Positions 616-62,146 of a stretch of 64,000 nt of DNA are shown in pieces. Source of the DNA: a virus. The notes below the pieces were generated by a model, which saw only the letters and a list, made by a program, of their open reading frames with translations, searched no databases and was not told the origin of the DNA. The position numbers were made by a program, and so were the translations under genes. Each line of letters starts with the position of its first letter. Within the stretch, counting starts at the first letter, position 1. The DNA is taken from the IMG/VR virus record IMGVR_UViG_3300048580_000526, positions 25,964 to 89,963 of that record; one strand, given 5' to 3'.

Positions 616-624
616 TATATTTAA

Positions 625-655
625 TTAACTCTATAGTTAATAGAATGGATAAATA
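625..655 (+). promoter_or_regulatory. Composite late promoter: inverted repeat plus GATAAATA
   Basis: A perfect inverted repeat TTAACT-ctat-AGTTAA (625-640) is followed after exactly 7 bases by GATAAATA (648-655). The ATG of the nucleotidyltransferase gene is 22 bases further on. The same arrangement occurs at 12251-12281 and, with a variant palindrome, at 44152-44182. GATAAATA matches the T4 late consensus TATAAATA except for its first base. Confidence 0.7.
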
Positions 656-677
656 AAAGTAAAGTGAGGAAAAGAAA

Positions 678-3497: not shown

Positions 3498-3500
3498 AAA

Positions 3501-3530
3501 TTAACCGAATGAATTATTTGATTATAAATA
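3501..3530 (+). promoter_or_regulatory. Late promoter, exact TATAAATA
   Basis: TATAAATA at 3523-3530, 23 bases before the hub ATG. TTAAC at 3501-3505 lies 22 bases upstream of the element, the same position as the left half of the inverted repeat in the composite promoters at 625 and 12251, but the right half is degenerate here. Confidence 0.6.
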
Positions 3531-3553
3531 AACAATAAAAGGGAAGTATAAGT

Positions 3554-7003: not shown

Positions 7004-7019
7004 TAAGGAGAATATATAA

Positions 7020-8216: not shown

Positions 8217-8226
8217 GGAAAATAAA

Positions 8227-31500: not shown

Positions 31501-31587
31501 TATCATTTTGAAGTGAACCCATCTGGTATTCAACGTAGTGAGTCCGAAATAGCTAAATATTTAATTGCCGAACCTGGAACATTTTGA
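16519..31587 (+). CDS. Giant virion structural protein, probably baseplate wedge/fibre-attachment
   Basis: 5022 residues in one uninterrupted frame of 15 kb. It starts on the stop of the gp6-like gene, where T4 has gp7, gp8 and later gp10. The N-terminus (DIIQVPDKRKMIKQLPGV...INYSQYYWLENGP) looks like other phage structural proteins I cannot name firmly. Motifs of the form WDxxPWDxxxWD recur (near residues 233-245, 3630-3645, 4650 and 4920). Beta modules of the type FIGDGVTSSFILNHNVPTKD occur near 655 and 4835, similar to the repeats in the 36227 fibre. A short local repeat (VNYGSI, VDYGSI, VDYGNV) lies near 4054-4090. No enzyme motif or signal peptide was seen. The baseplate location is inferred from gene order. 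Confidence 0.7.
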   Translation: MANNEQLFIYADIIQVPDKRKMIKQLPGVVQTQTLQNFFSATVDHLFQPVQSERVAGYIGQKPSYYDPSKDFYVPELSQERSIYQLEPCATTKNGNSITNAIFFADLLQALRSEGANITNQNRLFEQDYYSWCPPINLDMLINYSQYYWLENGPEPILVKTATDIDTQLVGKTAPDAADLTFGDSGSVKITSGMRIILLNDSNPAYNGKTISIEGVGKSIFIVEFNETDLNSTPWDLFPWDRFDWDLSTLTSSDYIIMERGCKDTNSWARNNHWYHKDVLLASNTSLFTNINKQASRPIICFERNLELYNYGDFRRSSVDLIDVDSQSMDPFNNFHPPQGERWVLLQVDGTLQFINENNGISYQEQIRTLKAQYPEQPEKVQIIKNGSTILFTAIIDSDVKNNKPYLVKIDNPVSTSSVNSWDSEPLDIDVWEESDPDISLSYSEIITGFLRFTPVTDSQDGTAGPNIGDIIKIKFGEYQGKEMWFDGHNWIIAQEKKDVNQEPLFTLYDANPNGNVGVRLDDETRYPGSSFKGNKIFGFLLNTDNRTVTDQYIGKKLTYNEWGEIKYQDFLDIVTDNDLVNTRYTYTKSKYNNQPISGYYFWKIKSDEFYGNNWWTVNETSKQFIVDNFIVTSDQPIINKQTFIGDGVTSSFILNHNVPTKDYLRVVVKDSTTNTNIFYKMDDNSNKVEFYDIPSVGQVITFYHYSKPKSNLEFIISQEPDVNLLLNKQDNLMVYINGKVATPGEHYLLVNQREFDATTPISKIAILQTTDSTNISIMKNTNITVKSYSPLTPDLDINGHYEIPNNLAINPDWSEVSYITSDQFLPQFSAIIKNQPNFSGIEYEANNWRDTIQDRSLGRTIIQHTSPLLRLMISNANDDLDYMKSSRFVETEYTRFKNKFLQKLTKFWIKDFIHVDITSTTEAQRKIVKKAAIDSIMKEINLGKVYKVSPFSYSNMAGMNWFIPPTPSFLGLFPTFKPEKYVDDTYLTPIEVIQCHDGSLLKTFGDYRDEIILELETLIYESIPLKFRDGNPHNAFQYKRYFPGKFRTQLSEYTREEINTISQPMFERWVSENQQSYRPHTGFDYTNLWTYNWSTSTDNLGNPVPGHWRGIFNWFFDTDRPHTHPWEMLGFSESPDWWETYYGPVPYTRGNMNLWEDLEKGIIREGSRAGIDPYYARPGLLNILPVDEYGHLIDPWTAGMLRRKPNYSEAEADWVYGDGSPVETKWKKTSQFPFAMSQIGYLIKPARWMEQCWNPLDDEFIYDQKQLIRKSTLNRSSHSKFTVHGETYNGQLVINYGYQQWITDRLLSNNKSPGSNFGDVIRALGVQLGYKVGGFCNPYTFYADNILGSLPAENINQFLYRSPSVREEIYSGVIIEWTGRSYKVSGYDSINPVFKIIPSDVFGKKVSHDVGGTVTIQPPEWQQGILYNVGDTVMFNYTYYKAIKTNQSTTYFDPTVWVETTLSASLSGTTVFEYLEPIYDRRIETIPYGYEFSSRQDTFDFLVSYQRYLISRGWAFDDIDETTTNEKIDWILSGRLFVQWSLERDKNVGTFIKLSPYAIHAQYKSSFGSIQSIEQVLNGVYSLLDENGFIIEPHDIISMRSDDVMDINLLLNDRSLSSVRLFVSEIEHVILFDNVTVFNDLIFDPLFNQRQVRLKVDGTRTLAWNGRIDAPGYIISDNLIYPNFEKTAKDFLRLYGIEDVVDNVELQNRARHLIGYQERPYLQNLLLSPTTNFQFYQGMIHAKGSRGSMTKLFRSEYVSESRDFKIFEEWAFKLGDYGAIDTNPTMEFYLDPLNGKQITEDPQLVTFNELQNSSSLPAEPSDLDDRYDNIISLYDYFEDGKLVTPDKRWLRRPNGIGNLWEKRDFGFYASDIPNAGPIKLDEVDYFITNTTELLKFSTNLRVDKNKSLTDGERLWIYDTGCGDWSVYRVTGVTSNSASVTSVSLNASIDQDSLCGLDVSTVTLIPNQKMDLTSVHSLVDGQYFVVVEQPKYPLGQYESLLGTYKAEIGTHGTMIYYSSPNTISNTWTDGTGPQIFSYMPMRYPTLNSVTGINPNTGWKSKNNNYIFELNSNVLAVDSNGHYIGSLKLIDSSKINSTTILGVSLELVTPTNNIHNEAFTVEIGNVFKNNYYTFTTPSLVSNDLVQSFTLNDNIAGTGLRQIIIGSTPHNFNAKYKIGTQIVGKISNIQVDITHAFAQTVNPVTFSIGTLADPNKYIVSGSVNITVINTVVFDTLHEIYEPEDIYVFYDLGNIPDQLGSMNVAITYKNEIDYTTNVLYTTNDDLMMYYNFGTILPSDNAMGTFRVHITIKEDNSDIIWVDDARTSYEIQKSITPYWASYIPAMMETTISYNDQKYFNGNKFLTASTPRNLFNNEDRLINKQITRIEVEVQEAFTNTSTVFNGSFDYSDLGSANTTVINGQSWMYNEINLVGETSNAMDGVVTDLQITIASQGSFVRPTTIKLFTPNTSYAAGALICQNGLIEKARVSFTSGATYNQSDWIQMPKLQMMIGTMSNPNIVLNENIIDLATANVTDIPMKVEVISPNVGSPEALYVFYNFNQYNINTSNTSAVTISGTIKSFVKIGHMSGNNFGFAPIVLTDELKTTGVYTYAPKYYYDSLLKTNNLQIGIVGHDTSTGKIIVRVTTWDQTWVQDRVEIKKISPNQIESALLYNIETDRIERYLTYYDLYKGIVPGNANREIYYRTLTDPAKYTHGTGLSDKNIDPEQAWGMPELGRVWWDLSTTRALEYEIGDDLQYSWKNWGKTVPNSTIDIYEWVRSPVAPKALAAGNSSFNASSYSGQLDGIVKDADNPFWVESKEFDKTVGTFKTFYYFWMKNKNTVPAVPFRNVSVSQVAAMISNPSGQDIPWFAPINENSILLGSLKQYYTNGNIVLQINWKTGTNDGNIHRQWVLLRENDPMSQIDTRLWNKMRDSLTGWDSYSETVVNLDGSHSVVSTPKQVPEPNLTIVQKYGTLYRPRQTWFKTEADNSPSRMARKVLVQKLNSSFMDRTTPFVDDYADFVESLNVSSPMPAARFKPVVSQNIAYTNTTSPITLKPSVIGYLSLITITVTTMFVQGSPTISVGTDANPELFVPRSSVNLKTTGTFIFGTKHLLNSKTDIKIFTDFNNSIAGEFKIAVTTVEANLDGYDYVVGPTNDGVTGREVRDLLLYNPGLNDGDRVLVTNDIDVAGFWSFWEWQKPASSSVGSFVMLGVQTYNINVANDDFIGYVDWYRNDSTYQITSNSKPLFYFDTIEDMAAAIDTWQEGSLVAVNNVDGRWSWYIRSVTTITLDLTTGWVLVARQNGSIALNSSFYNNTTVFAPKFKTFSEWTIDYDTIVARDGSNEIVELLDILQTRTDEEFKLFQNQLFFTMVKFVLSQQHLVDWIFKTSYIYITGLNQQLEQNPVVIPDNTESILDYIKEVKPYHTKIREFIRSLATPLEVNTYIATDFDNPSTWDAPLLDSTFLGTYRLANPSDSDAATADDIGPYDEKTVAGQTGLTTKRPWNEWWAAYSGSVSLANDATGMRIDYKNNDNRSPNTEHWKYLNTVRTYNMEMTFDRVQTDLDTLMAKPFDQWTTADHTLLANSGVVAKMFAQYSDFQENWVYYKSLISGSQFRGTVMEGGELLNYDIIDFENNQWDTRPWSVYNWDETQYSDSYPTTQIKKLVFSYTDFTTPITGVPSGKGTWYKKRITKDFVGIVTDVIFLVGTGFKNVPFQQITSYVGTDAAFDYLVGNSTTSSDFAFENQDLTFSGTFVHPTFTEINTKQDLNLYVRLEGTPTAGEGFVVVKSADKVQHLTYTVEIDGASGQSGSKMLVAHSIGNISTVKVTVLEPFSATEIPNLSVSVGTPYNHSSILDSSLVNLSNYKQPVGTSYPGEVVYSIAQHNRTPVNLNVYYDFLQATAGKIKVEINIDTVKQKLSAAGPLEPYYDLGVSGGTLEGIAKGVIEPAYDPLTDNDPNILIEGGRFIQPYIEQDRPEELVRSFVNDIAAVTVNTNSSFGSPMIHMQRFKGTGSPGPFNIFSIGQSISAIIVHKNNKLLIESEDYTIDWISMTITFLDSSVNYGSITNPSTTVDYGSITEVVTSSVDYGNVSDITDSENNSNNTNLNDDYLVTTFTTGGAQVLQEATFIAPTDYVLSNSIINESVWANTGVNKNAIMVTVNGYIPSSFDFDIIENKVIGIVPEPNIGDRVQVTLFDSDVYSVVRVENFIVGSDPVVYPYDLNLSWHQQSTTPASSAILVYNNGYRLLPPDVEYFDGNGVNNIFVIPAPKTLTNLTAIINGVTTTDYKIRPFSDVTINLLYTITISGADYLANGYVEIPFTSITGSVWDIAKEIPKDALFIIKNNQVMQDRVVEHGNRVRLIRFDEQPIASDTITIEVYDSFVYRLPTFVKDGIHYDFTSLTANYTFESNIQTSDQLYVYVDGIVVYNYFISTPNIQTPSIRKLTFFATDSSWDMDNIGIDASTWDGFASFMPGKSIPTAVNTVKIVVLDTKLNNHDVEIVFDVIPPMKSLIEVTIMENYDYIVNGDIVEIQSQVQLTEKDELQVISFSEDSSFGIRTEIFEGTVDSTYDLSQMPYSSNAIWATVDRFDMNNPTDPTKGMDQYQTKDFKVSYKMVDEGNGVTKEVAEVKFGIPHARLFNIGLGWSINPGSELGMDQQYTWDKKPWEDPNYTFEPDSSKTVGQTIPEPAGLVYEHGWEMDAWEGGSSIERDRVWITSFSGTPNVPAVSFRLFKTNNGTWEHIRISDSYKTYLNKPIYTASRTIELVANPEIPVSNIPVDLLDIPANKPGVIWIENERIEYKNMSMSMVNNRPVYTLSNITRGSLGTPSMQYLRYDRQHYYGDGLNKVFIIDQNIKNNFDNLAFIKYQYIVDKIVDGFTYYKIYKETRLESTDYTIYREAGVWYVKFNTALPQAVIANQEPFYPIYNVNSYSWDSNVIWGNDVWDQTGTIPNPNPTPQPTIVNTYYPTVVMVGFNNEATYINDVLQYEEGTMAINGAHIIPGGYHFEVNPSGIQRSESEIAKYLIAEPGTF

Positions 31588-50612: not shown

Positions 50613-53072
50613 ATGTTAAAAAATATGATCCAAATATGGCAGAAAGCCGCACAACACACAACAGAGGGTATTTTTGTGACCACTGTTGATGGGGATATTG
50701 TGTGGGTTAACGAAACATTTTCCCATATTACAGGTTATTCTTCAGCAGAAGCTGTTGGTAAAAACCCAAGATTATTTCAGTACAATGACGGGACAGAAAA
50801 AAAGAAACTGTCTTGGCGTTCATTATGGGTAACTATTTTGGCTGGGAAACTTTGGCGAGCTGAAGTGACGAATAGAAAAAAGAATGGTGACTTATACACT
50901 TGCATCCAAACCATTGTCCCAATATTTGAACAAAATTCAACCAAAATAGAATATTTCGTTGCGATTCATAATGACATAACCGACAAAAGAAGTATAGAAT
51001 ATAATGTACAAATGCGAACCAACCAATTAGAGTTGGCACAGGATATTGCGAAATTGGGTTATTGGGAATGGAATGCTTTAACCAACGAGTTCCATTGGAG
51101 TGATAGAACTTATGAAATTTTTGGAGTTGAAAAAGAAACATTTAACCCTACAATGGAAAATATTCTTGGTTTAATAAGTGAAGATGGTGTTGACTTTTTT
51201 AGATCTTGGTTAAATAGGGCAGTATATGCAAGAGAAGATTTTATCATTGATATTAAAATTAAAAATGAAGATAGAATTATTTATTTAAATTTTGAGTCAA
51301 AGTGTGGTTTAGATGAAAATGGATTTGTCATAAACTTATCAGGTATTGTGCAAGATATTACAGTAAGAAAATTAATTGAAAAGAAATTAAACGAACAATT
51401 ATCATTTGTTCAAACAATGATTGAACATAATCCTAATGCACTCTATTATAAAGATGTTAATAATAGATTTATTGGTTGTAATTTACAATTTGAAAAACTA
51501 TACAATGTGGACAGAAAGGATATAATTGGTAAAACAAACTATGAAGTTTGGGGAAATAGATATAATAAAAAAATTGAAGAAATTGAGTTTGAGGCGTTTG
51601 AATCAAATCATCCAATTCAAACAGAAATTTTTAGTAAAAATATTAATAAAGATTTAATTTTTTCAATATCATCGTATGGTGATGGTGATGGGGAATCTAT
51701 TGGTATTGTTGGTACCATTATTGATATTAGTGAGCGTAAACAAAATGAAAATCAAATTAGATTCATGGCATTTCATGATAGTCTGACTGGTTTGGCTAAT
51801 AGATCAAATATTTATCAACAATTAGAAACACTTCTTTTTGTCAAAAAACAAGAAACCCATCGCCATAATGACAGTGATGATTACTTATCCATTCTCTTTT
51901 TAGACCTTGATCATTTTAAAAATATTAATGATACAATGGGGCATGATATTGGTGATTTATTATTGAAACAGGCAAGTTCCAGAATTCAATCTTGTCTGCG
52001 AAAAGATGATACCCTTGGGAGATTGGGCGGTGATGAATTTGTCATTTTGTGCCAAACCAAACAACCAGAAACAATTGCACAAAAAATAATCTCTGAAATG
52101 GCTACCCCATTTGATTTAAATGGTAATTTGGTTTATATTGGTGTTTCTATTGGTATCGCAATTTATCCAAAAGATGGTGATACAACTAAAGAATTAATGA
52201 AAAATGCAGATTTGGCTCTTTATAAAGCCAAAGAAGATGGGCGAAATACTTTTCATTTTTTCACAGAACAAATGAACATGACAATTCTTGAACGTAGACA
52301 GATAGAAGATGACATGAGGGCAGCAATTGAAAATAAACAATTTGAATTATATTATCAACCGAGGGTCGCTCTCAATGAGACTGGTTATGAAGTTGCAAGC
52401 GCAGAGTGTTTAATACGATGGAACCACCCAACGCTTGGATTGATTTTTCCAAATTCATTTATCAATATAGCAGAGTTGACAGGTTTGATAATACCATTGA
52501 GTGAATGGGTAATAGAAGAATCCATTAAATCGCTATCATTATGGGAAAATGCTCAACACCATCCAGTTATATTATCCATTAATATATCACCTGCACATTT
52601 TAAAACATCAACATTGGTTTCATATATTAAAACGACGTTGGAAAAATATAACGTTTCACCATGTTATTTAGAAATAGAAATTACAGAAAATGTTCTTCTT
52701 GAAAGATCAGAACAAATTATGGAAAATATTAGAGAATTAAAGTTTTTGGGTGTAAAAATGGCAATTGATGACTTTGGAACTGGATATTCATCAATGAATT
52801 ACTTACGAAAATTTAATGTTAACTGCTTGAAAATAGATAAAAGTTTTGTTGATGATTTGGGTATAAACCATGATTCAGAACTTATTGTTAATGCTATAAT
52901 TGGTTTGGCTAAAAATTTAAAAATTAGGTGTGTAGCTGAAGGTGTTGAAACCATTAGCCAATTAGAATATTTGGAAAATGAAGGTTGTGATGAAATTCAG
53001 GGATGGTATTTTTCCAAAGCTATAACTGAGAATAAATTTTTGCAATACGTTCGTGAATTTAATAAAATTTGA
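50613..53072 (+). CDS. PAS-PAS-PAS-GGDEF-EAL c-di-GMP signalling enzyme
   Basis: 819 residues, no signal peptide or membrane span, so cytosolic. Three PAS/PAC domains (about 5-128, 135-255, 258-380) precede a GGDEF domain (about 383-560) and an EAL domain (about 570-815). GGDEF at 472-476 is intact, with an RxxD inhibitory site (RKDD, 463-466) at the canonical five-residue distance. The EAL domain reads ECL at 598-600 (a tolerated variant) and keeps SINISPAHF, LEIEITENVL, IDDFGTGYSS (Asp719-Asp720), LKIDKSFV and AEGVET, so it looks catalytically complete. GGDEF domains make c-di-GMP and EAL domains hydrolyse it; net activity is not predictable. GGAGTTGAGG is the ribosome site. The gene is a bacterial-type regulator set inside a phage fibre locus. 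Confidence 0.95.
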   Translation: MLKNMIQIWQKAAQHTTEGIFVTTVDGDIVWVNETFSHITGYSSAEAVGKNPRLFQYNDGTEKKKLSWRSLWVTILAGKLWRAEVTNRKKNGDLYTCIQTIVPIFEQNSTKIEYFVAIHNDITDKRSIEYNVQMRTNQLELAQDIAKLGYWEWNALTNEFHWSDRTYEIFGVEKETFNPTMENILGLISEDGVDFFRSWLNRAVYAREDFIIDIKIKNEDRIIYLNFESKCGLDENGFVINLSGIVQDITVRKLIEKKLNEQLSFVQTMIEHNPNALYYKDVNNRFIGCNLQFEKLYNVDRKDIIGKTNYEVWGNRYNKKIEEIEFEAFESNHPIQTEIFSKNINKDLIFSISSYGDGDGESIGIVGTIIDISERKQNENQIRFMAFHDSLTGLANRSNIYQQLETLLFVKKQETHRHNDSDDYLSILFLDLDHFKNINDTMGHDIGDLLLKQASSRIQSCLRKDDTLGRLGGDEFVILCQTKQPETIAQKIISEMATPFDLNGNLVYIGVSIGIAIYPKDGDTTKELMKNADLALYKAKEDGRNTFHFFTEQMNMTILERRQIEDDMRAAIENKQFELYYQPRVALNETGYEVASAECLIRWNHPTLGLIFPNSFINIAELTGLIIPLSEWVIEESIKSLSLWENAQHHPVILSINISPAHFKTSTLVSYIKTTLEKYNVSPCYLEIEITENVLLERSEQIMENIRELKFLGVKMAIDDFGTGYSSMNYLRKFNVNCLKIDKSFVDDLGINHDSELIVNAIIGLAKNLKIRCVAEGVETISQLEYLENEGCDEIQGWYFSKAITENKFLQYVREFNKI

Positions 53073-53078
53073 TAAATA
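53071..53078 (+). promoter_or_regulatory. Late promoter GATAAATA
   Basis: Overlaps the stop of the PAS-GGDEF-EAL gene; 30 bases before the ATG at 53109, with GGAG between. Confidence 0.5.
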
Positions 53079-53108: not shown

Positions 53109-53522
53109 ATGCCAGTAACATATACGGGAATCACCAGAACCACATCATCCCCGATTTACACAGATTTTAACGTTTCATCATTCTTGGCTGAATGTAACGC
53201 CTTGAAAGCGTTATTGGTTCCTGGTGCATTATTGGATCACAATCTTCTTCGTCGTCTTCAGGTTGTTTACAATAATTTTGAAACCCATCGTCACACTGCT
53301 GCTGATCAATATTTCGTTGCCTATACTGGGTCTGGTAATCTTGGTGGGACTGATTCTGCTGGGACTATTACCACAACTGATCCTGTTGGGTTCAGTGCAT
53401 CCACTATAGCGGTATTATCTGGGACATTGGTTACTGCAGATTTGGTTGATGATTTTGTGTCCAAGATCAACGCTGCGAAAACCCATCTCCATAACGTTAC
53501 AGAAACATCAAACGCAAGTTAA
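53109..53522 (+). CDS. Small tail protein with HxH motifs
   Basis: 137 residues. It has two HxH-type motifs (THRHTAADQ near residue 60 and THLHNVTE near the C-terminus), resembling the metal-binding HxH repeats at the tip of T4 gp37. The rest is Ser/Thr/Gly-rich and without a known domain. Its own late element precedes it and an intein-containing tail-tip gene follows after 62 bases. Role as a short fibre or tip protein is inferred from position and composition. Confidence 0.5.
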   Translation: MPVTYTGITRTTSSPIYTDFNVSSFLAECNALKALLVPGALLDHNLLRRLQVVYNNFETHRHTAADQYFVAYTGSGNLGGTDSAGTITTTDPVGFSASTIAVLSGTLVTADLVDDFVSKINAAKTHLHNVTETSNAS

Positions 53523-53552
53523 ATATTGAATGTTATGGTTAATATTTGGTAT

Positions 53553-53560
53553 GATAAATA
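53553..53560 (+). promoter_or_regulatory. Late promoter GATAAATA
   Basis: 24 bases before the ATG at 53585, followed by AGGAG. A GGTTAA lies upstream but not at the spacing of the composite promoters. Confidence 0.5.
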
Positions 53561-53584
53561 AATATAAAATAGGAGAATAAGATT

Positions 53585-54208
53585 ATGACAGATAATACTG
53601 TACCAACAACAACTAATACTTCGACAGTACCAGATGCCCCAACTAAAGCACCAGATGACACTGTTGATGCACAAACTTATCAACAGATGTTAGATATCCT
53701 GAAGGATTTGACTGACCACACCCATACATTTTATGACAGTTATGGTACCGCTTGCCAATGCAACTGCGCTTGTTTTGCAGGTGATACTTTAATTCATACC
53801 AGAGAAGGTGTGATGACAGCATTTAACTTGACTGGAAAAACAGTTGAAGTGTACTGTATTGATGATGTTTGGAGATCAGCTACTTGGAAATCTTATGGAT
53901 TACAAAAACTTTGGTCATTGACATTAAATAACGGGGAAGTTATTCGTGTAACTGAAGATCATCGTTGGCCGGTAATAGGTAAATCAGAAGTGGTATTAAC
54001 CAGAGATTTAATGGGTGAAAAACTTCATTGTAAGTTTGGGGATTTCAGAGAAGTAGAAGTTGTTGGTGTAACTGATTTGGGAATTTATGAATTGGTTCAT
54101 TGTTGTGAAGAACCAGTGACAGAAACTTTCGCTTTGGCTTCTGGAATTATTACTAAAAATTGTAATTGCACATGCTGCACTCGTGGGATGGTTTGGGGTG
54201 TGGCATAA
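53585..54208 (+). CDS. Cys-rich tail-tip protein interrupted by a mini-intein
   Basis: 207 residues as encoded. Residues 1-62 (N-extein) contain DHTHTFYD and CQCNCA; residues 193-207 (C-extein) are CNCTCCTRGMVWGVA. Between them, 63-192, lies a Hint/intein domain: CFAGDTLIHTREG (block A, nucleophile Cys63), VTEDHRWPV (block B, T-x-x-H), and TFALASGIITKN ending in Asn192 before Cys193 (blocks F and G, Lys in place of the usual penultimate His). Excision would give a 77-residue protein with an unbroken Cys-x-Cys run (CQCNCACNCTCC). No homing-endonuclease domain is present. The HTH and Cys motifs suggest a metal-binding fibre tip. Confidence 0.82.
   Translation: MTDNTVPTTTNTSTVPDAPTKAPDDTVDAQTYQQMLDILKDLTDHTHTFYDSYGTACQCNCACFAGDTLIHTREGVMTAFNLTGKTVEVYCIDDVWRSATWKSYGLQKLWSLTLNNGEVIRVTEDHRWPVIGKSEVVLTRDLMGEKLHCKFGDFREVEVVGVTDLGIYELVHCCEEPVTETFALASGIITKNCNCTCCTRGMVWGVA
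53771..54160 (+). other. Mini-intein coding segment
   Basis: 130 codons from Cys63 (TGT at 53771) to Asn192 (AAT ending 54160), directly followed by TGT for Cys193. Block A CFAGDT, block B TEDHRW, block F/G TFALASGIITKN are all at expected positions. The length is that of a minimal intein without endonuclease. Confidence 0.8.
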
Positions 54209-54287: not shown

Positions 54288-54313
54288 TGTTTTAACAGAT
54301 GGAGAAGACTATC

Positions 54314-54370
54314 ATGCGTAAATTGACCAAGGAAGAAATTGCGGCAAAGATCGCCAGTGCAAAGATTTAT
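54314..54370 (+). repeat. Direct repeat, copy 1
   Basis: 57 bases at the start of the 54314 gene recur at 55172-55228 with a single change (G for C at the eleventh base of the shared coding start region). A second shared block is near 54443-54490 and 55303-55350. The copies are 858 bases apart. Confidence 0.8.
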
Positions 54371-54517
54371 GCGGCAGCCCACCCTGAAATTCATTCAGAA
54401 TGGGATGCTGCTGTTGCAGAGTTAAAATCAAGGGTTTATATTGGTGAGTCTGGTGCCTATACTACTCCTGTCAAGGAAGGCGACCTTATTCGTATTGACG
54501 AGAATGATACAGAATGA
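54314..54517 (+). CDS. Small hypothetical protein, duplicated
   Basis: 67 residues from the ATG at 54314, which has GGAG 9 bases upstream; the ATG at 54299 contains that GGAG and is therefore unlikely. The product (MRKLTKEEIAAKIASAKIY...YIGESGAYTTPVKEGDLI) is nearly duplicated by the gene at 55172. The two are identical over the first about 19 residues except one. No family is recognised. It overlaps the start of the 54514 gene by 4 bases (ATGA). Confidence 0.65.
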   Translation: MRKLTKEEIAAKIASAKIYAAAHPEIHSEWDAAVAELKSRVYIGESGAYTTPVKEGDLIRIDENDTE

Positions 54518-55158
54518 GATGGGCTGAGATAATTACAGAAGTAGTTTTTAAAACAACCAAACAATATGGTATTCAACAAATTTTTGTGTCTAAACAATTT
54601 ATGAAAAGTTTTGACTCTTTTAAATTGATGGACAAAGATTTAGAAAAAGATTTAAATGAATTTTTATTTAAAAAAATAAGTGGTACGACTTTAAGTAAAG
54701 AAGCTCCACTATATGGTCCATTGGTTGGATTGTACCATTATCATCTTCGTCATGGTAGGGTGATTATAATTTATGCGTCAGATAATGAACATATAGAAAT
54801 TTATGCAATTGGTGGGCATGAATATGATGGTGATAATGCCCAACGACAATTGCGTAAAAGCATTAAGGGAATGACACAAGATAGTTTTGAAGTTTGGCAT
54901 TTACCAACTAATAAAATTGAATTTGCCAAACAACAATTATCTGTTGTTGAGAATTTGCTTTATTCATTGGTTGATGAAGTGGATATTTTAAAAGAGTATT
55001 TATCCACTGAAAATGGAATTATTGTTGATTTGATCACGCAAGAATTAAATATTTCTAACAAGACTGAATTTAAAGAATTTCTTTTAACTTGGGAAAAACA
55101 ATATAAAATATCGTTTGATAAATTTATCAAACGATTAATACCTGCTAATACAAATTAA
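54514..55158 (+). CDS. Protein with RelE/ParE-like toxin fold behind a short leader peptide
   Basis: 214 residues. After MRWAEIITEV, residues about 20-105 (DKDLEKDLNEFLFKKISGTT, PLVGLYHYHLRHGRVIIIYA, EHIEIYAIGGHEYD) follow the RelE/ParE ribonuclease-type toxin layout: two helices, then an LxGxxxYxLRxGRxxIxY strand pair and a final strand ending AIGGHE. The residues that make RelE toxic vary in the family and cannot be confirmed. Residues 110-214 are helical and unassigned. There is no antitoxin-like partner next to it, though it lies between two copies of a duplicated small gene. The N-terminus resembles a capsid-targeting peptide. Confidence 0.55.
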   Translation: MRWAEIITEVVFKTTKQYGIQQIFVSKQFMKSFDSFKLMDKDLEKDLNEFLFKKISGTTLSKEAPLYGPLVGLYHYHLRHGRVIIIYASDNEHIEIYAIGGHEYDGDNAQRQLRKSIKGMTQDSFEVWHLPTNKIEFAKQQLSVVENLLYSLVDEVDILKEYLSTENGIIVDLITQELNISNKTEFKEFLLTWEKQYKISFDKFIKRLIPANTN

Positions 55159-55171
55159 TGAGGAAAATAAC

Positions 55172-55228
55172 ATGCGTAAATTCACCAAGGAAGAAATTGC
55201 GGCAAAGATCGCCAGTGCAAAGATTTAT
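55172..55228 (+). repeat. Direct repeat, copy 2
   Basis: Second copy of the 57-base block at 54314-54370, in the same frame of the 55172 gene. Confidence 0.8.
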
Positions 55229-55399
55229 ATGGATGCCCATCCACATCTAAAAGACATTGATTTTAAGAAAATTATGGATGAATTTGAAACTCGTGAATAT
55301 ATTGGTGAATCTGGTGCTTATACTACACCTGTCAAGGAAGGCGACCTTATACCATTTGATGAGAATGAACAATTAGAATTTCATTTTATGAAACAATAA
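55172..55399 (+). CDS. Small hypothetical protein, second copy of the 54314 gene
   Basis: 75 residues, MRKFTKEEIAAKIASAKIY then a divergent middle (MDAHPHLKDIDFKK), then YIGESGAYTTPVKEGDLI as in the first copy, and a C-terminal extension (EQLEFHFMKQ). AGGAAA lies upstream of the ATG. The two conserved ends with a changed centre suggest that the ends matter, for example for binding to a partner. Its last 27 bases overlap the end of the leftward gene at 55373. Confidence 0.65.
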   Translation: MRKFTKEEIAAKIASAKIYMDAHPHLKDIDFKKIMDEFETREYIGESGAYTTPVKEGDLIPFDENEQLEFHFMKQ

Positions 55400-55663
55400 A
55401 TCTTCAGTTTTTTCAAATTGTGCAAATAATCCAATAGATTCTTTAAATTCTTCAGCATCTCCCCCTTGAACTTCCAGATTAATTTCATCTAAATACAACA
55501 CAACGTTCATTGATTTTTCTGTACAAGATTGTATTAATGCTATTACTTCTTTGCCTGAAGCTAATAAATCAAGGCACATTCTTTCAGTCCAACCATTTTT
55601 TAAAAAATGGGCTGGTAACGCTCCTAATAGAGCAGTATTGGAATCCACGATATGAAAAATCAT
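55373..55663 (-). CDS. Hypothetical protein of the leftward cluster
   Basis: 96 residues from ATG 55663, chosen because it overlaps the upstream stop as ATGA and has GAGG 5 bases upstream. The sequence (MIFHIVDSNTALLGALPAHFLKNGW, SGKEVIALIQS, MNVVLYLDEINLEVQG) reads as alternating strands and helices. No known motif was seen. It is the last gene of the leftward cluster and is translationally coupled to the 55660 gene, with which it probably works. Confidence 0.6.
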   Translation of the reverse strand: MIFHIVDSNTALLGALPAHFLKNGWTERMCLDLLASGKEVIALIQSCTEKSMNVVLYLDEINLEVQGGDAEEFKESIGLFAQFEKTEDLLFHKMKF

Positions 55664-56349
55664 CCCCACCTCAATCTAAAAAACATTGCGTCTTGAACAT
55701 TCATAAAATAATAATTATGACGAAAATAGTCATGGATAAATGGGCATTCAATTTTTTTCAACCAATCATAAACTTCATCAGATTGTAAGAAAGGATGACT
55801 TTCTTTATATTGGAAAATATTAAAAACATCATTTATTTGTTCACCAGATAAAATTGGTATTTCCACGAAAACTTGTTGTCCATTTTCATCTTCTACTGTG
55901 GTTGATTTAGCATCATAAATTCCTTCATAACTAATTTTGAAATGGTTAGAATATTTACTATTTAGGGTGCTTTCGTTAATACCATTTCTATGTTTAAATA
56001 AATGGAGCCATAATGATAAATGCTCACTCCAAAGTTCAAGAAATTTTTTGGCATCTTTTTTTCTTGGAAAATTATACAACCCTTTAGTCCACACACCACC
56101 TGATAGATAGTTATGGTAGTCTTGGTGAATTAACGTCCCATTGTTTGAACCAACCCAAGAATGAATTTCAGGGAACCAAAGTTTAAATTCTTCAAGATGG
56201 CGAAGGTGTTGTTCTTTTGTTGGAAATTGCCAATTTGAAACGTTATTATGTTCATAAAATAATGGAATATTCCAAGATAGAATTTTCTTTCTACCTGTCC
56301 CAAACCCATGATATTTTTCTTTAATTGGTTCTAATACTAAAAATTCCAT
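55660..56349 (-). CDS. Hypothetical Trp-rich protein
   Basis: 229 residues from ATG 56349, with GGAGG 5 bases upstream; the frame opens earlier (56364) without a site. It is rich in Trp, Phe, Tyr and His (WNIPLFYEHNNVSNW, FPEIHSWVGSNNG, WSEHLSLWLHLFKH, YFRHNYYFMNV). No catalytic motif or family is recognised, and there is no signal peptide. It has its own host-type promoter (56366-56393), so it may be expressed apart from the radical SAM genes upstream. It is coupled to the 55373 gene. Confidence 0.6.
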   Translation of the reverse strand: MEFLVLEPIKEKYHGFGTGRKKILSWNIPLFYEHNNVSNWQFPTKEQHLRHLEEFKLWFPEIHSWVGSNNGTLIHQDYHNYLSGGVWTKGLYNFPRKKDAKKFLELWSEHLSLWLHLFKHRNGINESTLNSKYSNHFKISYEGIYDAKSTTVEDENGQQVFVEIPILSGEQINDVFNIFQYKESHPFLQSDEVYDWLKKIECPFIHDYFRHNYYFMNVQDAMFFRLRWG

Positions 56350-56365
56350 TTTCACCTCCAGCATT

Positions 56366-56393
56366 ATCCTACCATGAATTATTTTATTGTCAA
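56366..56393 (-). promoter_or_regulatory. Host-type promoter, leftward, weaker -10
   Basis: On the minus strand TTGACA (56388-56393), 16 bases, TAGGAT (56366-56371). The spacer end and -10 (TTCATGGTAGGAT) are like those of the 11096-11123 promoter (ATCATGGTATTAT), which supports it. Confidence 0.5.
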
Positions 56394-56695
56394 AGGATTA
56401 AAAATTTTAATTTTATGTATGAACATATATCCTTATGTTTGAAATACCAACATCCTCCCCAAAATTCCCATAAAGCATTTTTGTTTATTGGGAAAACATC
56501 CAATCTTGATTCTTCTAATATTAATGGATCGCCATATGTTTGTTTGAGATAATCATGAATTATTTTCCATTGCTCCATTGAAAGATCATCATTGCTTTCT
56601 ATTTTATATGGAAAATAATCGTTTAGGTACATATCAATTTGTTCTGTATGTGAGAAATTAAATTCTTTGAAATATGTTAAATCCATTTTAATCAT
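56390..56695 (-). CDS. Small hypothetical protein following the radical SAM gene
   Basis: 101 residues, starting within the end of the radical SAM gene (8-base overlap), so it is translationally coupled to it. The sequence (MDLTYFKEFNFSHTEQ, MEQWKIIHDYLKQTYGD, ALWEFWGGCWYFKHKDICSYIKLKF) contains a Trp/Cys-rich C-terminal patch. No family is recognised. Small proteins coupled to radical SAM/SPASM genes are often substrates or carriers in peptide-modifying systems; that this is one is only a hypothesis. ATG at 56686 is an alternative start. Confidence 0.55.
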   Translation of the reverse strand: MIKMDLTYFKEFNFSHTEQIDMYLNDYFPYKIESNDDLSMEQWKIIHDYLKQTYGDPLILEESRLDVFPINKNALWEFWGGCWYFKHKDICSYIKLKFLIL

Positions 56696-58964
56696 GCCTA
56701 AAAGGTGTTATTTGTTTTAATTCTGTATATAAAATTGCTATTTTTTTGCACATATCATCAGGTTGAAATACAGGTCTACCTGCGACAGCATTCCCTGCTG
56801 GACATTGGTAACAATAAAGTGTATTACAGTCTTGGCATTCTGGTAATTTTTGTAATTTTTCATATTCTGACTGTATTTCCATAATGGCAACACGATTGAT
56901 TTCATTTTTGAATAAATTTCCTAAAATGGTATGGGGAACGTCTTCTTTTCTTGAGACGAATTTATAACACCCTGAAAAATCGCCAGAACCATCGATTGAA
57001 ATTTCATCCATTGCTGCAGACATACATCCAGTTCTACCTTTTTCCCCAACTCCTTCTGAAATTTGGAATTTTAATAAATCTTTGTGGGTCGATAAGATGT
57101 TTTTTATAGTTGATGAAAATGTTTCCCAAGTTTTATCATTCCAAGAAATCCAACCATCTGTAAAAGAATTTATCAATGGGTGAAATATAAATTTTCTAAC
57201 GCCAATATTATATAATGATGTGAACCAATGATTTATTTCATTGGTTTGGTCTGGTGTAAAAGTAGCCTGTATGGTTAATTGGTGTGGTTGTGTAATTGAA
57301 GCAATTAATTTTATATTATCAATAATTTTTTGGATTTGTTCTGTTGTTAGTTTTCTATTTTTGGTATTACCATTGAGTGAATCTAATGATACAGTCATTC
57401 TAACGTCTTGATATGAAAAATATTCTTGGATAAATTGTGGTGTTAATAATAGTCCGTTTGTTACAACGCTTATGGTTTGATGTCCAACAGATTTTGTTAT
57501 ATCATTTTTGTATTGGTTCATGAATGATAAAATTAATTTATTATGGATTAACGGTTCTCCCCCAAAAAATTGAACATATTTAAAATATTTAGAATTGATA
57601 TTAGCAAGAAAATCCCATGCTTGTTTGATTTTTTCTGGTGTAAATGGTTCATAATTTTTGACGTGTTGCATATAACAGTAATCACATTTTAGATTGCAAG
57701 AATTGGTTAAAAGCAAATCTACATATTTTAGGTTGTAGAATAGGTCATTGGCATCAGAAAGAACGTTTGTTTTTGTAACTTGTTGATTTTGTTCTGGTTT
57801 TTTATTGATATGTTTGATTAAATCATCTTCTTTGTTCAAATCATAATTGTAACGATTTAGAAAAATATCAATAAGCTTTGTAAAATCCTTGCAAGGACTT
57901 TTATCCAATGTTTGGTTATCTGCCCAAGTATAATAAAAATGAATATCGTTGCATATTGGTGGGTCCATATAGATGCAAGATTTGCATTTCTCTAAAATTG
58001 GTGGTTCCCAGTCATGGTATATTTCAATCTTATCTTTCCATTGTCCTTTTCTGGCTTTTTCATTATGATATTCGGCAGTGACATATTCTGGATATAGATA
58101 CCCATCTGCAGAAAGAATATAGTAGTCATAATTATCTGTTGACGGCAATCCAATATCTGGTGTTACCCCATCAAGACACACAGGTATTTTGTACACATAA
58201 AGCACTTCCAAAAATTGTTTCATTCTGGTAAAATATTCATTTAGTGAAAATCCTGGGATGGTTAATAGGTCAATGAATCCAACGTTTGGTTTATAGGTAA
58301 ATCTTGCAAGCACCAACGACAATTTATTTATTTTATTTCTGTGTTGGGAAAATAGCTTTACAATTGGGGCAATCCTGTCAATGGAAAAGAAATCCCTACT
58401 ATCTGGTGGAACTGTATAGTATAGTTCTATATTGGAAACATTTTGGTGCAAAAAATCCAACGTATCATCGATTAATAATGGCGGGGAATTTGTTGGCGAT
58501 TCTCTCAATGATTCTTGATAGGAAAAATCATAACTCAAACTAATCATTAGACGTTGGTTCCATTTTTGGAAGAAATCTTTATTTTTTAGGATTAGTAAAC
58601 CATTTGTGACGATTTGGAATTTCATTTTTTGGCAAACATTTTCCAACACACCTGTCATAATATCATCCATAATTTCAACCCAAAGTAATGGTTCCCCACC
58701 ATAAAATGTTATAAAATCCAATGGGGATTCTGAACCAACGTTGAAACTTTTGATAAAATTGATAATTTGGGGAACATCAGATTTTTTCATTTGAATATTA
58801 CCATGAAGTTCTTTGATTGCATCTCTGTCACAATAGGTACAATTTAGATTACAAGTTGACCCAAGATGGATTGAAAGATATACCCCTCTCCCTTCGATGT
58901 GACGATAATCTCCAAGATTGCATGAACGATTTTTTAAATATTCGCTATATTGTTGGGATGGCAT
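56688..58964 (-). CDS. Tandem radical SAM/SPASM-like enzyme
   Basis: 758 residues with two complete radical SAM halves. Half 1: CNLNCTYC (Cys38, Cys42, Cys45), YGGEP at 88-92, C-terminal Cys group 327, 330, 338, 358. Half 2: CNLKCDYC (Cys423, Cys427, Cys430), FGGEP at 467-471, C-terminal Cys group 647, 666, 710, 713, 718, 721, 739 in a SPASM-like layout (CQDCNTLYCYQCPAGN). The CxxxCxxC motifs bind the 4Fe-4S cluster that cleaves S-adenosylmethionine; SPASM domains carry extra clusters and are typical of peptide- or protein-modifying enzymes such as anaerobic sulfatase maturases and RiPP maturases. The start abuts the stop of the 58965 gene (TAGATG). Substrate unknown; the coupled neighbours are candidates. 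Confidence 0.92.
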   Translation of the reverse strand: MPSQQYSEYLKNRSCNLGDYRHIEGRGVYLSIHLGSTCNLNCTYCDRDAIKELHGNIQMKKSDVPQIINFIKSFNVGSESPLDFITFYGGEPLLWVEIMDDIMTGVLENVCQKMKFQIVTNGLLILKNKDFFQKWNQRLMISLSYDFSYQESLRESPTNSPPLLIDDTLDFLHQNVSNIELYYTVPPDSRDFFSIDRIAPIVKLFSQHRNKINKLSLVLARFTYKPNVGFIDLLTIPGFSLNEYFTRMKQFLEVLYVYKIPVCLDGVTPDIGLPSTDNYDYYILSADGYLYPEYVTAEYHNEKARKGQWKDKIEIYHDWEPPILEKCKSCIYMDPPICNDIHFYYTWADNQTLDKSPCKDFTKLIDIFLNRYNYDLNKEDDLIKHINKKPEQNQQVTKTNVLSDANDLFYNLKYVDLLLTNSCNLKCDYCYMQHVKNYEPFTPEKIKQAWDFLANINSKYFKYVQFFGGEPLIHNKLILSFMNQYKNDITKSVGHQTISVVTNGLLLTPQFIQEYFSYQDVRMTVSLDSLNGNTKNRKLTTEQIQKIIDNIKLIASITQPHQLTIQATFTPDQTNEINHWFTSLYNIGVRKFIFHPLINSFTDGWISWNDKTWETFSSTIKNILSTHKDLLKFQISEGVGEKGRTGCMSAAMDEISIDGSGDFSGCYKFVSRKEDVPHTILGNLFKNEINRVAIMEIQSEYEKLQKLPECQDCNTLYCYQCPAGNAVAGRPVFQPDDMCKKIAILYTELKQITPFRHD

Positions 58965-59948
58965 CTAATTACTCCTCAATACGGTGAATGACCAATCAAA
59001 TTCTTTGGTACAAGTTTCCCAAAATGCCCCTGTGGAAATTTTAATGTTTAGGTAATTGAAATTGGATATTGGGGTAATGTTCAATTTATTATTCTCCCAT
59101 GAAAATTTCATATTGGTATTTATCAAGACATCTTTGGAAATGTCCAACGAATGACCAATTAAACCAATTTCAGAACCTGACTTATGAACACCATTAAATG
59201 TTTCCCAACTTTTATTACTGAAAAAATCCAACTTGAATGGACCTTCTGTTATAACGACATTATCATTTCTAAATTGAATATTTTCAAAATCCAAATTAAA
59301 TATTCTTGTTTTCAATGGTTCTGTATTTTCTGCAAAAATGGTAAAATCTTTTGATTTATTAACGAACAATACCTTATTTGATATTAGACTATTATTCAAC
59401 ACCATAATATAAATTGGTAAGTTCCCCAATTTGAACATTGATATTGGGAACAGGGATAAATTTTGATGTTTGGAATAATCAGTTTCAATTTCTTGATTAT
59501 TATAAAACACTGTTTGAGATAATGGATTGTATAATTGTCCTTTATCATTTTTTGTTAAAAAATTCATATATTGGAATGGGTTCTTGGCTTTTTCTTCATT
59601 GAAATCCACTATTCCATAAAACGACGACCCTGCTATTGTTGGATGCTTTTCTTCATCACAATATTTCAACATTGCGTTTATGTTTATATTATAGCTATAA
59701 TCGTATTTAAAATTATTGGCATTTTTTGGGATGATAGTTAGAAGATTTTCTGGTTGATTATTGTCCCGAATTAGTTTCCACATATGTTGATTTTGTCTAA
59801 ATGGGAAACGATATTCAAGCGAAGTCCCAGACACCAATTGGGAATAGTTGTCTTCATCATCTGGACCACGATAATTTCTTATATATTCTTCCACAGAAGA
59901 AAACAAGTCATTATCTGGTATGCTATTTTGGATAAAAATGTATTTCAT
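58965..59948 (-). CDS. Paralogue 1 of a three-member family next to the radical SAM gene
   Basis: 327 residues. The core (about 170-255: MFKLGNLPIYIMVLNNSLISN, TRIFNLDFENIQF, ITEGPFKLDFFSN) recurs in the 61218 and 59986 products with moderate similarity. The C-terminal third is beta-rich (NKLNITPISNFNYLNIKIS). N-terminal MKYIFIQNSIPDNDLFSSVEEYI matches the opening of the 61218 product (LYIIQDSALNQKDMIYEIENYV). No signal peptide, no known fold. The last base touches the radical SAM start. The ribosome site is weak. Confidence 0.6.
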   Translation of the reverse strand: MKYIFIQNSIPDNDLFSSVEEYIRNYRGPDDEDNYSQLVSGTSLEYRFPFRQNQHMWKLIRDNNQPENLLTIIPKNANNFKYDYSYNININAMLKYCDEEKHPTIAGSSFYGIVDFNEEKAKNPFQYMNFLTKNDKGQLYNPLSQTVFYNNQEIETDYSKHQNLSLFPISMFKLGNLPIYIMVLNNSLISNKVLFVNKSKDFTIFAENTEPLKTRIFNLDFENIQFRNDNVVITEGPFKLDFFSNKSWETFNGVHKSGSEIGLIGHSLDISKDVLINTNMKFSWENNKLNITPISNFNYLNIKISTGAFWETCTKEFDWSFTVLRSN

Positions 59949-59985
59949 TGTTTGATTATAAAATAATTCTTTTAGATATTCAAAT

Positions 59986-61215
59986 TTAATCTTTTATGAA
60001 TTGTACTTTGGATAAATCTTTTATGAATTCGTCAACAGTTTGATTTTCATTTTTCGCAATACCATCAATCAATAATCCATTGGCGTCATATCTATCAAAA
60101 ATTTCTGGATTGTTTGGAACCAATGAAGTTTTATTGATTATGAATTCACAATACATTTTATTTGATTTTTGTAAAGCATCCATTTCTTTTCCAAGATTCA
60201 ATTTAACTTTCATATATGTTTTTTGTCCATTTTTCAATCCTGTAACATCAAATGTTATCCTATAAGACCCCACAGCCCCATAAAGAACTTTATTAACAGA
60301 GAACGGGATTGTGGTTTCAATATCAAAAATACTATCTGGAATTTTTTCAATATGATTATATAATGTTGCGTTATTTTCCCATTCATATTTTTCGATTGGT
60401 GAAAAAATTTCCATACTGAAGGTATCTTGGCTAACATGTAAATCATACTTTCCAGCCAAATAATCAACATTGAAGAATACAGAATTTAAAAATTCGTGTT
60501 TGAAGGTGAAATTTTCTTGTTTGCAAGTTTCAGTTTGAACATCCCCACAATAAGTGTGTGGTGAAATTTTTTCTTGGATGATTTCACTGTTGGTAATCAT
60601 GACATATATTGAAGTGTTTTCTAATTTGTTGACTGTGAAGACTGTAATTAATTTGTCCTTGCTCTCAACTATTTTATCATTATCACAACGATATAACGAA
60701 CCACCATTCAAGTACATGAAGAACATATTTTTTAACATATCTGCTGGGCTTATTGATTTTAATGTTGTTCCATCAATGCCATAAATCACTAATGATTGTT
60801 TTTTATCAACCCAATCAAGAATTTCCCAAGAAGGCATTTCTCTATAATAATGGGGTAATGTTTTAAAAATCCTATCAACTGGTGTTGTTGGGGTAATATC
60901 TTTAACATAATTGGGCATATCCAAAATAGTAAATGGGCTTTCAAAATAAAACCTATCTGGTCTTGGGTCTGTATCTTTTTTAGCCATGAGATTGGTATCA
61001 AATGGCTTTGGGTCTGTTATCAACACAAATCTTGCCTTATGAGTTGTGCCAGTTTGGGAAAAAGTGTTTATCTTACTACTTTGGATTGGAATATTGGTTA
61101 TAGAATTTTCATCATGCCCATGATTGAACATATCAATACTGGATAGAATTTCTTTACCTTTTTGGGTACCATCTGTAATAATGAGGAATCGTTTTCCATT
61201 GTTTATTGTTTTCAT
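59986..61215 (-). CDS. Paralogue 2 of a three-member family
   Basis: 409 residues, the longest member. It shares the core (VNKLENTSIYVMITNSEIIQE, FKHEFLNSVFFNVDYLAG, DTFSMEIFSP) and the N-terminal beta start (KRFLIITDGTQKGKEIL). It has an added C-terminal domain (VLYGAVGSYRITFDVTGLKNGQKTY..., then a helix) and a Cys pair (HTYCGDVQTETCKQ). Function unknown. It follows the 61218 gene after 2 bases and precedes the 58965 gene by 37. Confidence 0.6.
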   Translation of the reverse strand: MKTINNGKRFLIITDGTQKGKEILSSIDMFNHGHDENSITNIPIQSSKINTFSQTGTTHKARFVLITDPKPFDTNLMAKKDTDPRPDRFYFESPFTILDMPNYVKDITPTTPVDRIFKTLPHYYREMPSWEILDWVDKKQSLVIYGIDGTTLKSISPADMLKNMFFMYLNGGSLYRCDNDKIVESKDKLITVFTVNKLENTSIYVMITNSEIIQEKISPHTYCGDVQTETCKQENFTFKHEFLNSVFFNVDYLAGKYDLHVSQDTFSMEIFSPIEKYEWENNATLYNHIEKIPDSIFDIETTIPFSVNKVLYGAVGSYRITFDVTGLKNGQKTYMKVKLNLGKEMDALQKSNKMYCEFIINKTSLVPNNPEIFDRYDANGLLIDGIAKNENQTVDEFIKDLSKVQFIKD

Positions 61216-61217
61216 CG

Positions 61218-62117
61218 TTATACCTTATAAATGTTGTAATCGTAGAATGTTTTTTGGGATTCGAAGATATAGTTATTCAAGAACTCGTTTGAATTCAATT
61301 TGATGCACAAATACCCGGTGGTCATGCTTGGAACATTAGACAAATCTAATGTTAAAATCGTCCCCTCTAAAGTGAATGGGATATTGGAACTGACTGTTAT
61401 CAAGTCTGCTAAATTTGGGGGCAACAATGGTTTAACATCATTTGTAAAAAGTTCAATCGTCAAAGTGTCTTCATTAACGAACACTGTTTTCTTCCCGATA
61501 ATTTGTTCCACTCCAGCAGTAAAATTGACTGTGAAGAATTTATTTTTTAGGTATTCGGTTGAAGAAGATGCTATAATGGTTGAAGTTGAACTTTTAATAG
61601 TCATCCCTCTATTAGCATTAACCACAGCAGCGGAATTCAAAATCCCTGTATAGATTGGAAGGGTACCAACTTTAAAGAATGTTGCGAATGAGAAGAAGAA
61701 CGCTGGCATGGATTCATCTGCCACAACCAATTCTGCGGTTTCGCAATTTATGAATGAACCATCTGGATTTCTTGAATAATACCCCAACCCTGTTAAAAGA
61801 TTTTGGTCTGTTACCAATCCCGGTACTGGGGACATAATATAGCAGTTATTGTATCTGTCACAATATTGTTTAATATTGGCTACTGAAACAACACGATGGA
61901 AATCTGTAGCATTTGGGTTTGTAATATCGTTGATGTTGAAAATTCTGTGCCCGAAAATTAGATTATCATTTGATTTGTCAAAATATAGTGTGAATAGATA
62001 GTTATTATTATGGAAGAAAGTGTATTGGGGTGCTTGTCCCCTTACATAATTTTCGATTTCATAAATCATATCTTTTTGGTTTAAAGCACTATCTTGGATA
62101 ATATATAAATCATTCAT
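61218..62117 (-). CDS. Paralogue 3 of a three-member family, first gene of the leftward operon
   Basis: 299 residues. The core reads FFKVGTLPIYTGILNSAAVVN, KNKFFTVNFTAGVEQIIG, NEDTLTIELFTND, aligned with the other two. The N-terminal part (MNDLYIIQDSALNQKDMIYEIENYV) and a Cys/Tyr segment (IKQYCDRYNNCYIM) stand out; no known domain. A strong ribosome site (AAAGGAG) precedes the ATG, and a late GATAAATA lies at 62139-62146, so the operon is probably late-expressed. Some codons are more C-ending than in the other two paralogues. Confidence 0.6.
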   Translation of the reverse strand: MNDLYIIQDSALNQKDMIYEIENYVRGQAPQYTFFHNNNYLFTLYFDKSNDNLIFGHRIFNINDITNPNATDFHRVVSVANIKQYCDRYNNCYIMSPVPGLVTDQNLLTGLGYYSRNPDGSFINCETAELVVADESMPAFFFSFATFFKVGTLPIYTGILNSAAVVNANRGMTIKSSTSTIIASSSTEYLKNKFFTVNFTAGVEQIIGKKTVFVNEDTLTIELFTNDVKPLLPPNLADLITVSSNIPFTLEGTILTLDLSNVPSMTTGYLCIKLNSNEFLNNYIFESQKTFYDYNIYKV

Positions 62118-62138
62118 TTTAAAAATCTCCTTTTCTTT

Positions 62139-62146
62139 TATTTATC
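62139..62146 (-). promoter_or_regulatory. Late promoter GATAAATA of the radical SAM cluster
   Basis: GATAAATAAAAG on the minus strand, 22 bases before the ATG at 62117. Divergent from the host-type promoter at 62164. Confidence 0.6.

Follow-up and report, generated by a model that had tools for sequence, protein, structure and literature searches.

The DNA analyzed here (the window; 64,000 nucleotides, positions 25,964 to 89,963 of IMG/VR virus record IMGVR_UViG_3300048580_000526) makes up the right-hand end of a viral fragment of 90 kb. It contains a leftward operon encoding a 758-amino-acid (aa) fused radical S-adenosylmethionine (SAM) enzyme and, close to it, a rightward gene for a small protein with a tract of alternating cysteines, which is proposed as the substrate of the enzyme. 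Sequence comparison places the source among the jumbo myophages, near Agrobacterium phage Atu_ph07 and phages of the Rak2 type (43% identity for the 1260-aa baseplate wedge).

Results

Organization of the locus

An earlier note on this DNA had recognized the operon, and seven leftward open reading frames (ORFs), 61218-62117 through 55373-55669, are indeed encountered there in one direction, with successive gaps of 2, 37, 0, -8, 25, and -10 bp. The neighborhood had been read too narrowly, as two plus-strand genes (53109-54208) belong to the system as well. Its components are listed below, with L018 designating a related IMG/VR locus.

53071..53078, plus strand: late-type element GATAAATA of the HxH-motif gene (upstream count over the 63 genes of the record)
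53109..53522, plus strand: 137-aa protein with two HxH motifs (phrog_31780, 1.2e-6; 31% identity to L018 4195-4536)
53553..53560, plus strand: late-type element GATAAATA of the Cys-tract gene (upstream count over the 63 genes of the record)
53585..54208, plus strand: small Cys-tract protein, proposed substrate (42% identity to the 66-aa protein of L018, intein set aside)
53771..54160, plus strand: putative 130-aa mini-intein within the Cys tract (NCBIfam TIGR01445 above cut-off)
56688..58964, minus strand: 758-aa fused radical SAM enzyme (Pfam Radical_SAM twice; halves are separate adjacent genes in L018)
58965..59948, minus strand: 327-aa paralog of the 299-aa protein (BLASTP E 0.001)
59986..61215, minus strand: 409-aa paralog of the 299-aa protein (BLASTP E 4e-5)
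61218..62117, minus strand: 299-aa protein at the start of the enzyme operon (E 1e-6 to L018 4533-5360)
62139..62146, minus strand: late-type element GATAAATA of the enzyme operon (upstream count over the 63 genes of the record)

The 299-, 409-, and 327-aa proteins are mutual paralogs, encoded by the first three operon genes before the enzyme. The Cys-tract gene lies 2.5 kb from the operon, on the opposite strand.

The fused radical SAM enzyme

Two stretches of the 758-aa protein match Pfam Radical_SAM (PF04055) above cut-off (7.9e-27), and the protein displays the CxxxCxxC motif, GGE-type SAM site, and predicted partial TIM barrel of this superfamily. Its N-terminal half (radical SAM B, residues ~1-400) contains CxxxCxxC at C38/42/45, GGEP, and the auxiliary cysteines C327, C330, C338, and C358, while its C-terminal half (radical SAM/SPASM A, residues ~400-758) contains CxxxCxxC, GGEP, and the seven-Cys pattern typical of SPASM domains (C247, C266, C310, C313, C318, C321, and C339 in the numbering of this half). 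The two CxxxCxxC cores and two C-terminal Cys clusters noted earlier were thus recovered, the cluster of the N-terminal half comprising only four Cys, which marks this half as a predicted shortened, twitch-like form. In an alignment, five of five orthologs of each half retained without exception all cluster cysteines, GGEP, and the cysteines of the SPASM or auxiliary sites, and the loss of Cys ligands in relatives that would have spoken against a functional system was not seen.

The C-terminal half is 36% identical to L018 5567-7093 (E 6e-75) and the N-terminal half 35% identical to L018 7094-8095 (E 2e-47), and in L018 these are adjacent separate genes in the order opposite to that of the fusion. 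The enzyme, previously taken as one tandem unit, accordingly appears from sequence comparison to be a fusion of two genes that relatives encode separately. The best matches of the A half were CteB 5WGG among PDB sequences (E 2.8e-24), CteB 5WHY by fold, and PapB in NCBIfam (1.1e-48), whereas 8VPO, CteB, and the YydG entries came nearer to the B half. The AlphaFold2 model of the A half shows a barrel of moderate confidence and a SPASM part of low confidence, and therefore only the core fold match was used. Profile searches, which the earlier note had suggested, placed both halves in Radical_SAM and left them below the NCBIfam maturase cut-offs (PapB ranthipeptide maturase model NF047865, 166 bits against a cut-off of 340; SCIFF maturase model TIGR03974, 93 bits against 425, the precursor also being of another kind). 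General Pfam and NCBIfam scans returned no RiPP (ribosomally synthesized and post-translationally modified peptide) recognition element, and no search aimed at this domain was made.

The enzyme is missing from five records of related jumbo phages and is therefore considered accessory in its lineage. A single-sequence IMG/VR scan with the enzyme gave no match; a query built from an alignment succeeded and yielded L018. The best fecal 'Bacteriophage sp.' matches (L010, L011, L012) were rejected as phage kin: they proved to be bacterial loci for SCIFF-type maturases, with ABC, gyrase-like, and SecD-like genes nearby, and are probably not phage.

The Cys-tract protein and its expression

The N-terminal part of the Cys-tract protein runs up to DHTHTFYDSYGTACQCNCA and is followed by the putative mini-intein and then by CNCTCCTRGMVWGVA, the alternating-Cys tract constituting the C-terminus. 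The 66-aa protein encoded directly before the enzymes in L018 ends in DHTHIFYDDYSRNCDCNCNCTRGTWG and is 42% identical to the window protein when the 130-aa insertion is set aside. The motif recurs in loci L098-L101 and L142, with a near-invariant DHTHxFYDxYxxxCxCNCxC that reads NHTHVFFDDY at its start in L142. These features are those of a RiPP-type precursor, i.e., a small protein with a conserved N-terminal part (DHTHxFYDxY) and a C-terminal core (CxCNCxC), encoded beside an enzyme in six cassettes. The insertion (CFAGDT...GIITKN, then Cys) scored 27.2 bits with TIGR01445, the intein N-terminal model (cut-off 24.5), and combines the N-terminal motif with a GIITKN/C junction in which Lys replaces the usual penultimate His. 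It may thus represent a mini-intein that would splice in the middle of the tract, and it occurs in none of the Cys-tract proteins of the relatives.

The sequence GATAAATA, which resembles the T4 late element TATAAATA, is found 20-70 bp upstream, on the coding strand, of 14 of the 63 genes in the record, compared with 0.5 expected and one occurrence on the wrong strand, so that the late-type element of the earlier note is real. The genes that it precedes include portal, baseplate, fiber, HxH-motif, and Cys-tract genes as well as the enzyme operon, where it begins at 62146, at a distance of 29 bp from the first ATG. Because both are preceded by GATAAATA, the enzyme and its proposed substrate are probably co-timed late in infection, and are probably governed by one late program despite their opposite strands.

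Related cassettes

A scan with the Cys-tract protein alone, without enzyme query, detected five viral loci, and a scan of bacterial genomes detected one (L142, on a contig of a Bdellovibrio sp. metagenome-assembled genome). The gene order in all six loci is HxH-motif protein, Cys-tract protein, ~300-aa protein, and radical SAM A, followed by B, C, and D where the contig continues, amounting to two to four radical SAM enzymes per cassette, and the A and B genes are orthologous to the two enzyme halves at 35-40% identity. Of the neighbors that had been proposed to be coupled to the enzyme, the upstream type (the 299-aa family) is retained with the enzymes and the Cys-tract protein in 6/6 cassettes, while the three downstream genes are retained in none of the six. 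A candidate for the anticipated peptide substrate in the same operon is likewise encountered in the relatives; in the window the proposed substrate is divergent and 2.5 kb away. L142 carries a complete cassette (1971-8629) with bacterial-looking flanks, which is present in only 1 of the 66 genomes of the family of this contig and is therefore regarded as a rare acquisition or a phage remnant.

Pairing of radical SAM genes with Cys tracts

Radical SAM genes and Cys tracts that end fiber-like proteins are generally paired. An ORF with an alternating-Cys motif lies within 1.5 kb in 55 of 77 IMG/VR loci with radical SAM ORFs, and in 40 of the 43 loci that have two or more such genes. Three DNA motifs were also searched without regard to radical SAM genes, so that the test would not be circular. 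Records with CTCNCNYCTC contained radical SAM genes in 38 of 38 cases (32 inside the stretch, the other six records having 3-11 PF04055 matches), the stretches concerned harboring 117 radical SAM ORFs in 361 kb, and records with CGGTCSWTC did so in six of six. For CTCTCTCTCTC (CTCTCTC tails), the three genuine C-terminal tails were all accompanied by radical SAM genes, compared with 0 of 77 matches that lie in hexamer repeats and do not end fiber-like proteins. Control jumbo-phage loci contained neither radical SAM nor Cys-motif ORFs in 131 kb, and PF04055 matches occurred once per 13 kb in Cys-motif records versus once per 166 kb in controls.

The self-cleaving S74 chaperone begins with SDxRL, and this sequence comes after the tract in 27 ORFs; S74 was confirmed by Pfam in L061. 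Cultured phages display comparable arrangements. Achromobacter phage JWF encodes a fiber-like protein (gp028) with NCNCDCNCNCS followed by a Hom_end_hint (Hint) domain, and then gp029 and a radical SAM/SPASM gene (gp030); Erwinia phage Stratton has three small Cys/Gly/Ser-rich proteins before two adjacent radical SAM genes; and the Campylobacter phages CP220/CPt10 encode a 534-aa protein (gp140 in CP220) with six CTCDCNY-type repeats, 2.2 kb from a radical SAM gene. The 11-12 radical SAM genes of CP220/CPt10 were described as highly unusual and given a proposed metabolic role, being reported separately from a 21-bp repeat (Timms 2010, PMC2853527), and a marine virus genome study of 2017 grouped phage radical SAM genes with Fe-S metabolism (PMC5332604). 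As a separate observation, L140 6691-15274 (CP220 70690-79273) combines five radical SAM genes with an amidinotransferase-like and two sugar-transferase-like genes, and the tract may carry further modifications.

Partner and neighboring genes

The model of the 299-aa protein gave no match in the PDB at E <= 0.001; its best fold match was protein A0A1L7N0Q3 of Ralstonia jumbo phage RP12 (E 1.5e-15, TM 0.69). In the RP12 paper, ORFs 76, 77, 79, and 80 are given as a radical SAM protein, an Fe-S oxidoreductase, a MoaA-like protein, and MgoB, respectively, and the cassette that RP12 appears to carry is deduced from this gene list and the fold match. The 137-aa HxH-motif protein adjoins the Cys-tract gene in the relatives, with the same position in L098, L100, L101, and L142. 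A DUF3050 (heme-oxygenase-like) gene is found beside the cassettes of L100 (6742-7488, minus strand) and, by eye, L142 (8562-9326, minus strand), and may represent a further partner; MgoB of the RP12 cluster is presumably of the same DUF3050 type.

Three ORFs follow the enzyme in the operon:

56390..56695, minus strand: 101-aa ORF 3' of the enzyme, probably outside the system (no family; no cassette relative)
55660..56364, minus strand: 234-aa ORF 3' of the enzyme, probably outside the system (no family; no IMG/VR or cassette relative)
55373..55669, minus strand: 98-aa ORF at the operon end, probably outside the system (no family; no cassette relative)

No family match and no relative in any cassette was found for these ORFs, nor an IMG/VR relative for the 234-aa protein in a single-sequence scan, and megablast and tblastn searches of the neighbor genes against phages gave no matches; the three ORFs are probably not conserved parts of the system. 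The 101- and 234-aa proteins resemble each other in a C-terminal motif (WYFKHKDICSYIKLKF and YYFMNVQDAMFFRLRWG, respectively), perhaps a common phage tag.

Elsewhere, 50613-53072 (plus strand), between the fiber genes and the Cys-tract gene, encodes an 819-aa protein with PAS, GGDEF (2e-46), and EAL (3e-69) domains, preceded by GATAAATA at -64; a cyclic di-GMP enzyme is unusual in a phage. At 54299-55399 (plus strand) a 214-aa protein weakly similar to RelE/YafQ toxins is encoded between two paralogs of 72 and 75 aa, and the tail region contains a single 5022-aa ORF (16519-31587, plus strand) of which the first 4994 residues have no Pfam match. Proteins resembling those of nicotinamide adenine dinucleotide salvage (NadE-like, NAMPT-like, and nicotinamide mononucleotide adenylyltransferase-like) were noticed by eye at record positions 112-4398 (L003) and in the window at 678-1355 (plus strand), CTP_transf_like being confirmed for the latter.

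Discussion

The findings are best accommodated by a system in which the Cys tip of a tail-associated protein is modified, probably through thioether cross-links, by dedicated radical SAM/SPASM enzymes, a reading to which we assign a probability of about two in three. Late in infection the phage would make a small tail-associated protein (53585-54208) with an alternating-Cys tract as its C-terminal tip; the mini-intein would first remove itself by splicing and thereby link the two parts of the tract (CQCNCA + CNCTCCTRG). The fused enzyme would then draw on SAM and its Fe-S clusters for modification of the tract, most likely forming thioethers between Cys sulfurs and neighboring residues. The conserved stretch ahead of the tract (DHTHxFYDxY), and perhaps the 299-, 409-, and 327-aa partners, would guide the enzyme, and the product would be a stiff virion tip that resists proteases and reductants.

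The gene set is conserved, its catalytic residues are intact, and the late element is common to both partners; the Cys tract is likely to be the substrate of the enzyme. Its position among fiber genes and its late element suggest that the tract is located on the virion surface in this phage. PapB and CteB make thioethers at Cys, and because the A half is closest to PapB in sequence and to CteB in sequence and fold, thioether formation would be the likeliest chemistry, with epimerization, methylation, or cyclophane bonds as alternatives. The proposal of the earlier note, a SPASM-type enzyme that acts late, with a peptide or a virion protein as its target, is thereby supported, since a Cys-tract tail-type protein occurs in every cassette and the late element is common.

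CxC spacing is also typical of metallothioneins, and the tract might be a metallothionein-like tail that binds metal or Fe-S, with the radical SAM genes serving Fe-S or cofactor metabolism without touching it. This would suit the metabolic role proposed for the 11-12 CP220/CPt10 genes (Timms 2010, PMC2853527) and the placement of phage radical SAM genes with Fe-S metabolism (PMC5332604), but it is unlikely given that the enzymes are of SPASM type, are closest to peptide maturases, and adjoin the Cys gene in unrelated phages; moreover, several distinct Cys motifs show the pairing, which metal binding alone would not need. That the ~300-aa partners (299, 409, and 327 aa) are modified and the Cys-tract protein is a mere neighbor appears distinctly improbable: their genes lie directly 5' of the enzyme in the window and all family cassettes, and three paralogs are present in the window, yet Cys is scarce in these proteins, only two of their residues are invariant across seven sequences, and other loci combining radical SAM genes with Cys tracts lack such a partner by BLAST, L018 excepted. 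We give equally little credence to release of the Cys-tract protein, once modified, as a free peptide (a RiPP, toxin, or signal carried by the phage) instead of its incorporation in the virion. Its small size, its precursor-like build of conserved N-terminal part and C-terminal core, and its occurrence in the Bdellovibrio contig speak for such a role; against it, no protease or exporter gene was recognized in the cassettes, many analogous tracts end long fiber-like proteins or precede S74/Hint domains, and the late element is common to the Cys-tract gene and virion genes.

Several points weigh against enzymatic modification of a virion tip. The enzyme and proposed substrate genes of the window are on opposite strands, the 90-kb fragment lacks the cassette genes C and D, and none of the enzymes passes a curated NCBIfam cut-off of the thioether-maturase families. 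Since the Bdellovibrio copy resides among bacterial-looking genes, the Cys-tract protein need not always be part of a virion. In the wider survey, only 15 of 34 loci with a single radical SAM gene have a Cys-motif ORF, and the radical SAM-bearing stretches of KVP40 and Thermus phage phiLo show no Cys tract. Furthermore, the CTCTC matches were sorted into genuine and spurious only after being seen, and close kinship among many of the counted contigs makes the independent lineages fewer than the counts.

Beyond this phage, we lean slightly towards a general, undescribed, radical-built tip in many unrelated tailed phages (phiKZ-like, T4-like, Rak2/Atu_ph07-like, and siphoviruses), in which a Cys-tract fiber tip is exposed by autoproteolysis or splicing and 1-12 dedicated radical SAM enzymes modify it covalently. 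The radical SAM genes of phages have long seemed odd and have hitherto been ascribed to metabolism; if the fiber end is their substrate, their presence is explained and a simple motif predicts the substrate in any phage. Virions would then be modified by radical chemistry, and as fiber tips contact the host surface, this chemistry matters for phage biology and for enzymatic tools that cross-link peptides. The reading can be tested directly in the cultured phages that hold both partners (Campylobacter CP220, Erwinia Stratton, and Achromobacter JWF). The literature searched contained no radical SAM modification of S74- or Hint-type fiber ends and no phage radical SAM enzyme with a Cys-rich, fiber, or virion substrate; subscription papers and preprints fell outside it, and an earlier description is possible.

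Among known systems, the SCIFF/CteB and PapB ranthipeptide maturases are alike in the architecture of the A half, and their precursors similarly have a Cys-rich C-terminal core after a leader-like part. The window enzyme differs in scoring far below their cut-offs, in the two to four radical SAM enzymes per cassette, in the lack of a recognized exporter or protease, and in its proposed substrate, a tail-type phage protein with CxCxC spacing. QhpD, the maturase of quinohemoprotein amine dehydrogenase, is a radical SAM/SPASM enzyme whose Cys cross-links lie within a structural protein and not in a free peptide. Its model TIGR03906 is among the matches of the window enzyme, the similarity being weak, whereas QhpD acts on a subunit of a host enzyme with another Cys pattern. 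The S74 chaperones and Hint domains mature fiber ends by autoproteolysis, and are located directly 3' of the Cys tract in other phages, compared with a putative mini-intein inside the tract here. A further likeness is that of CP220/CPt10, where clusters of radical SAM genes and a Cys-repeat protein (six CTCDCNY) are present in the same phages.

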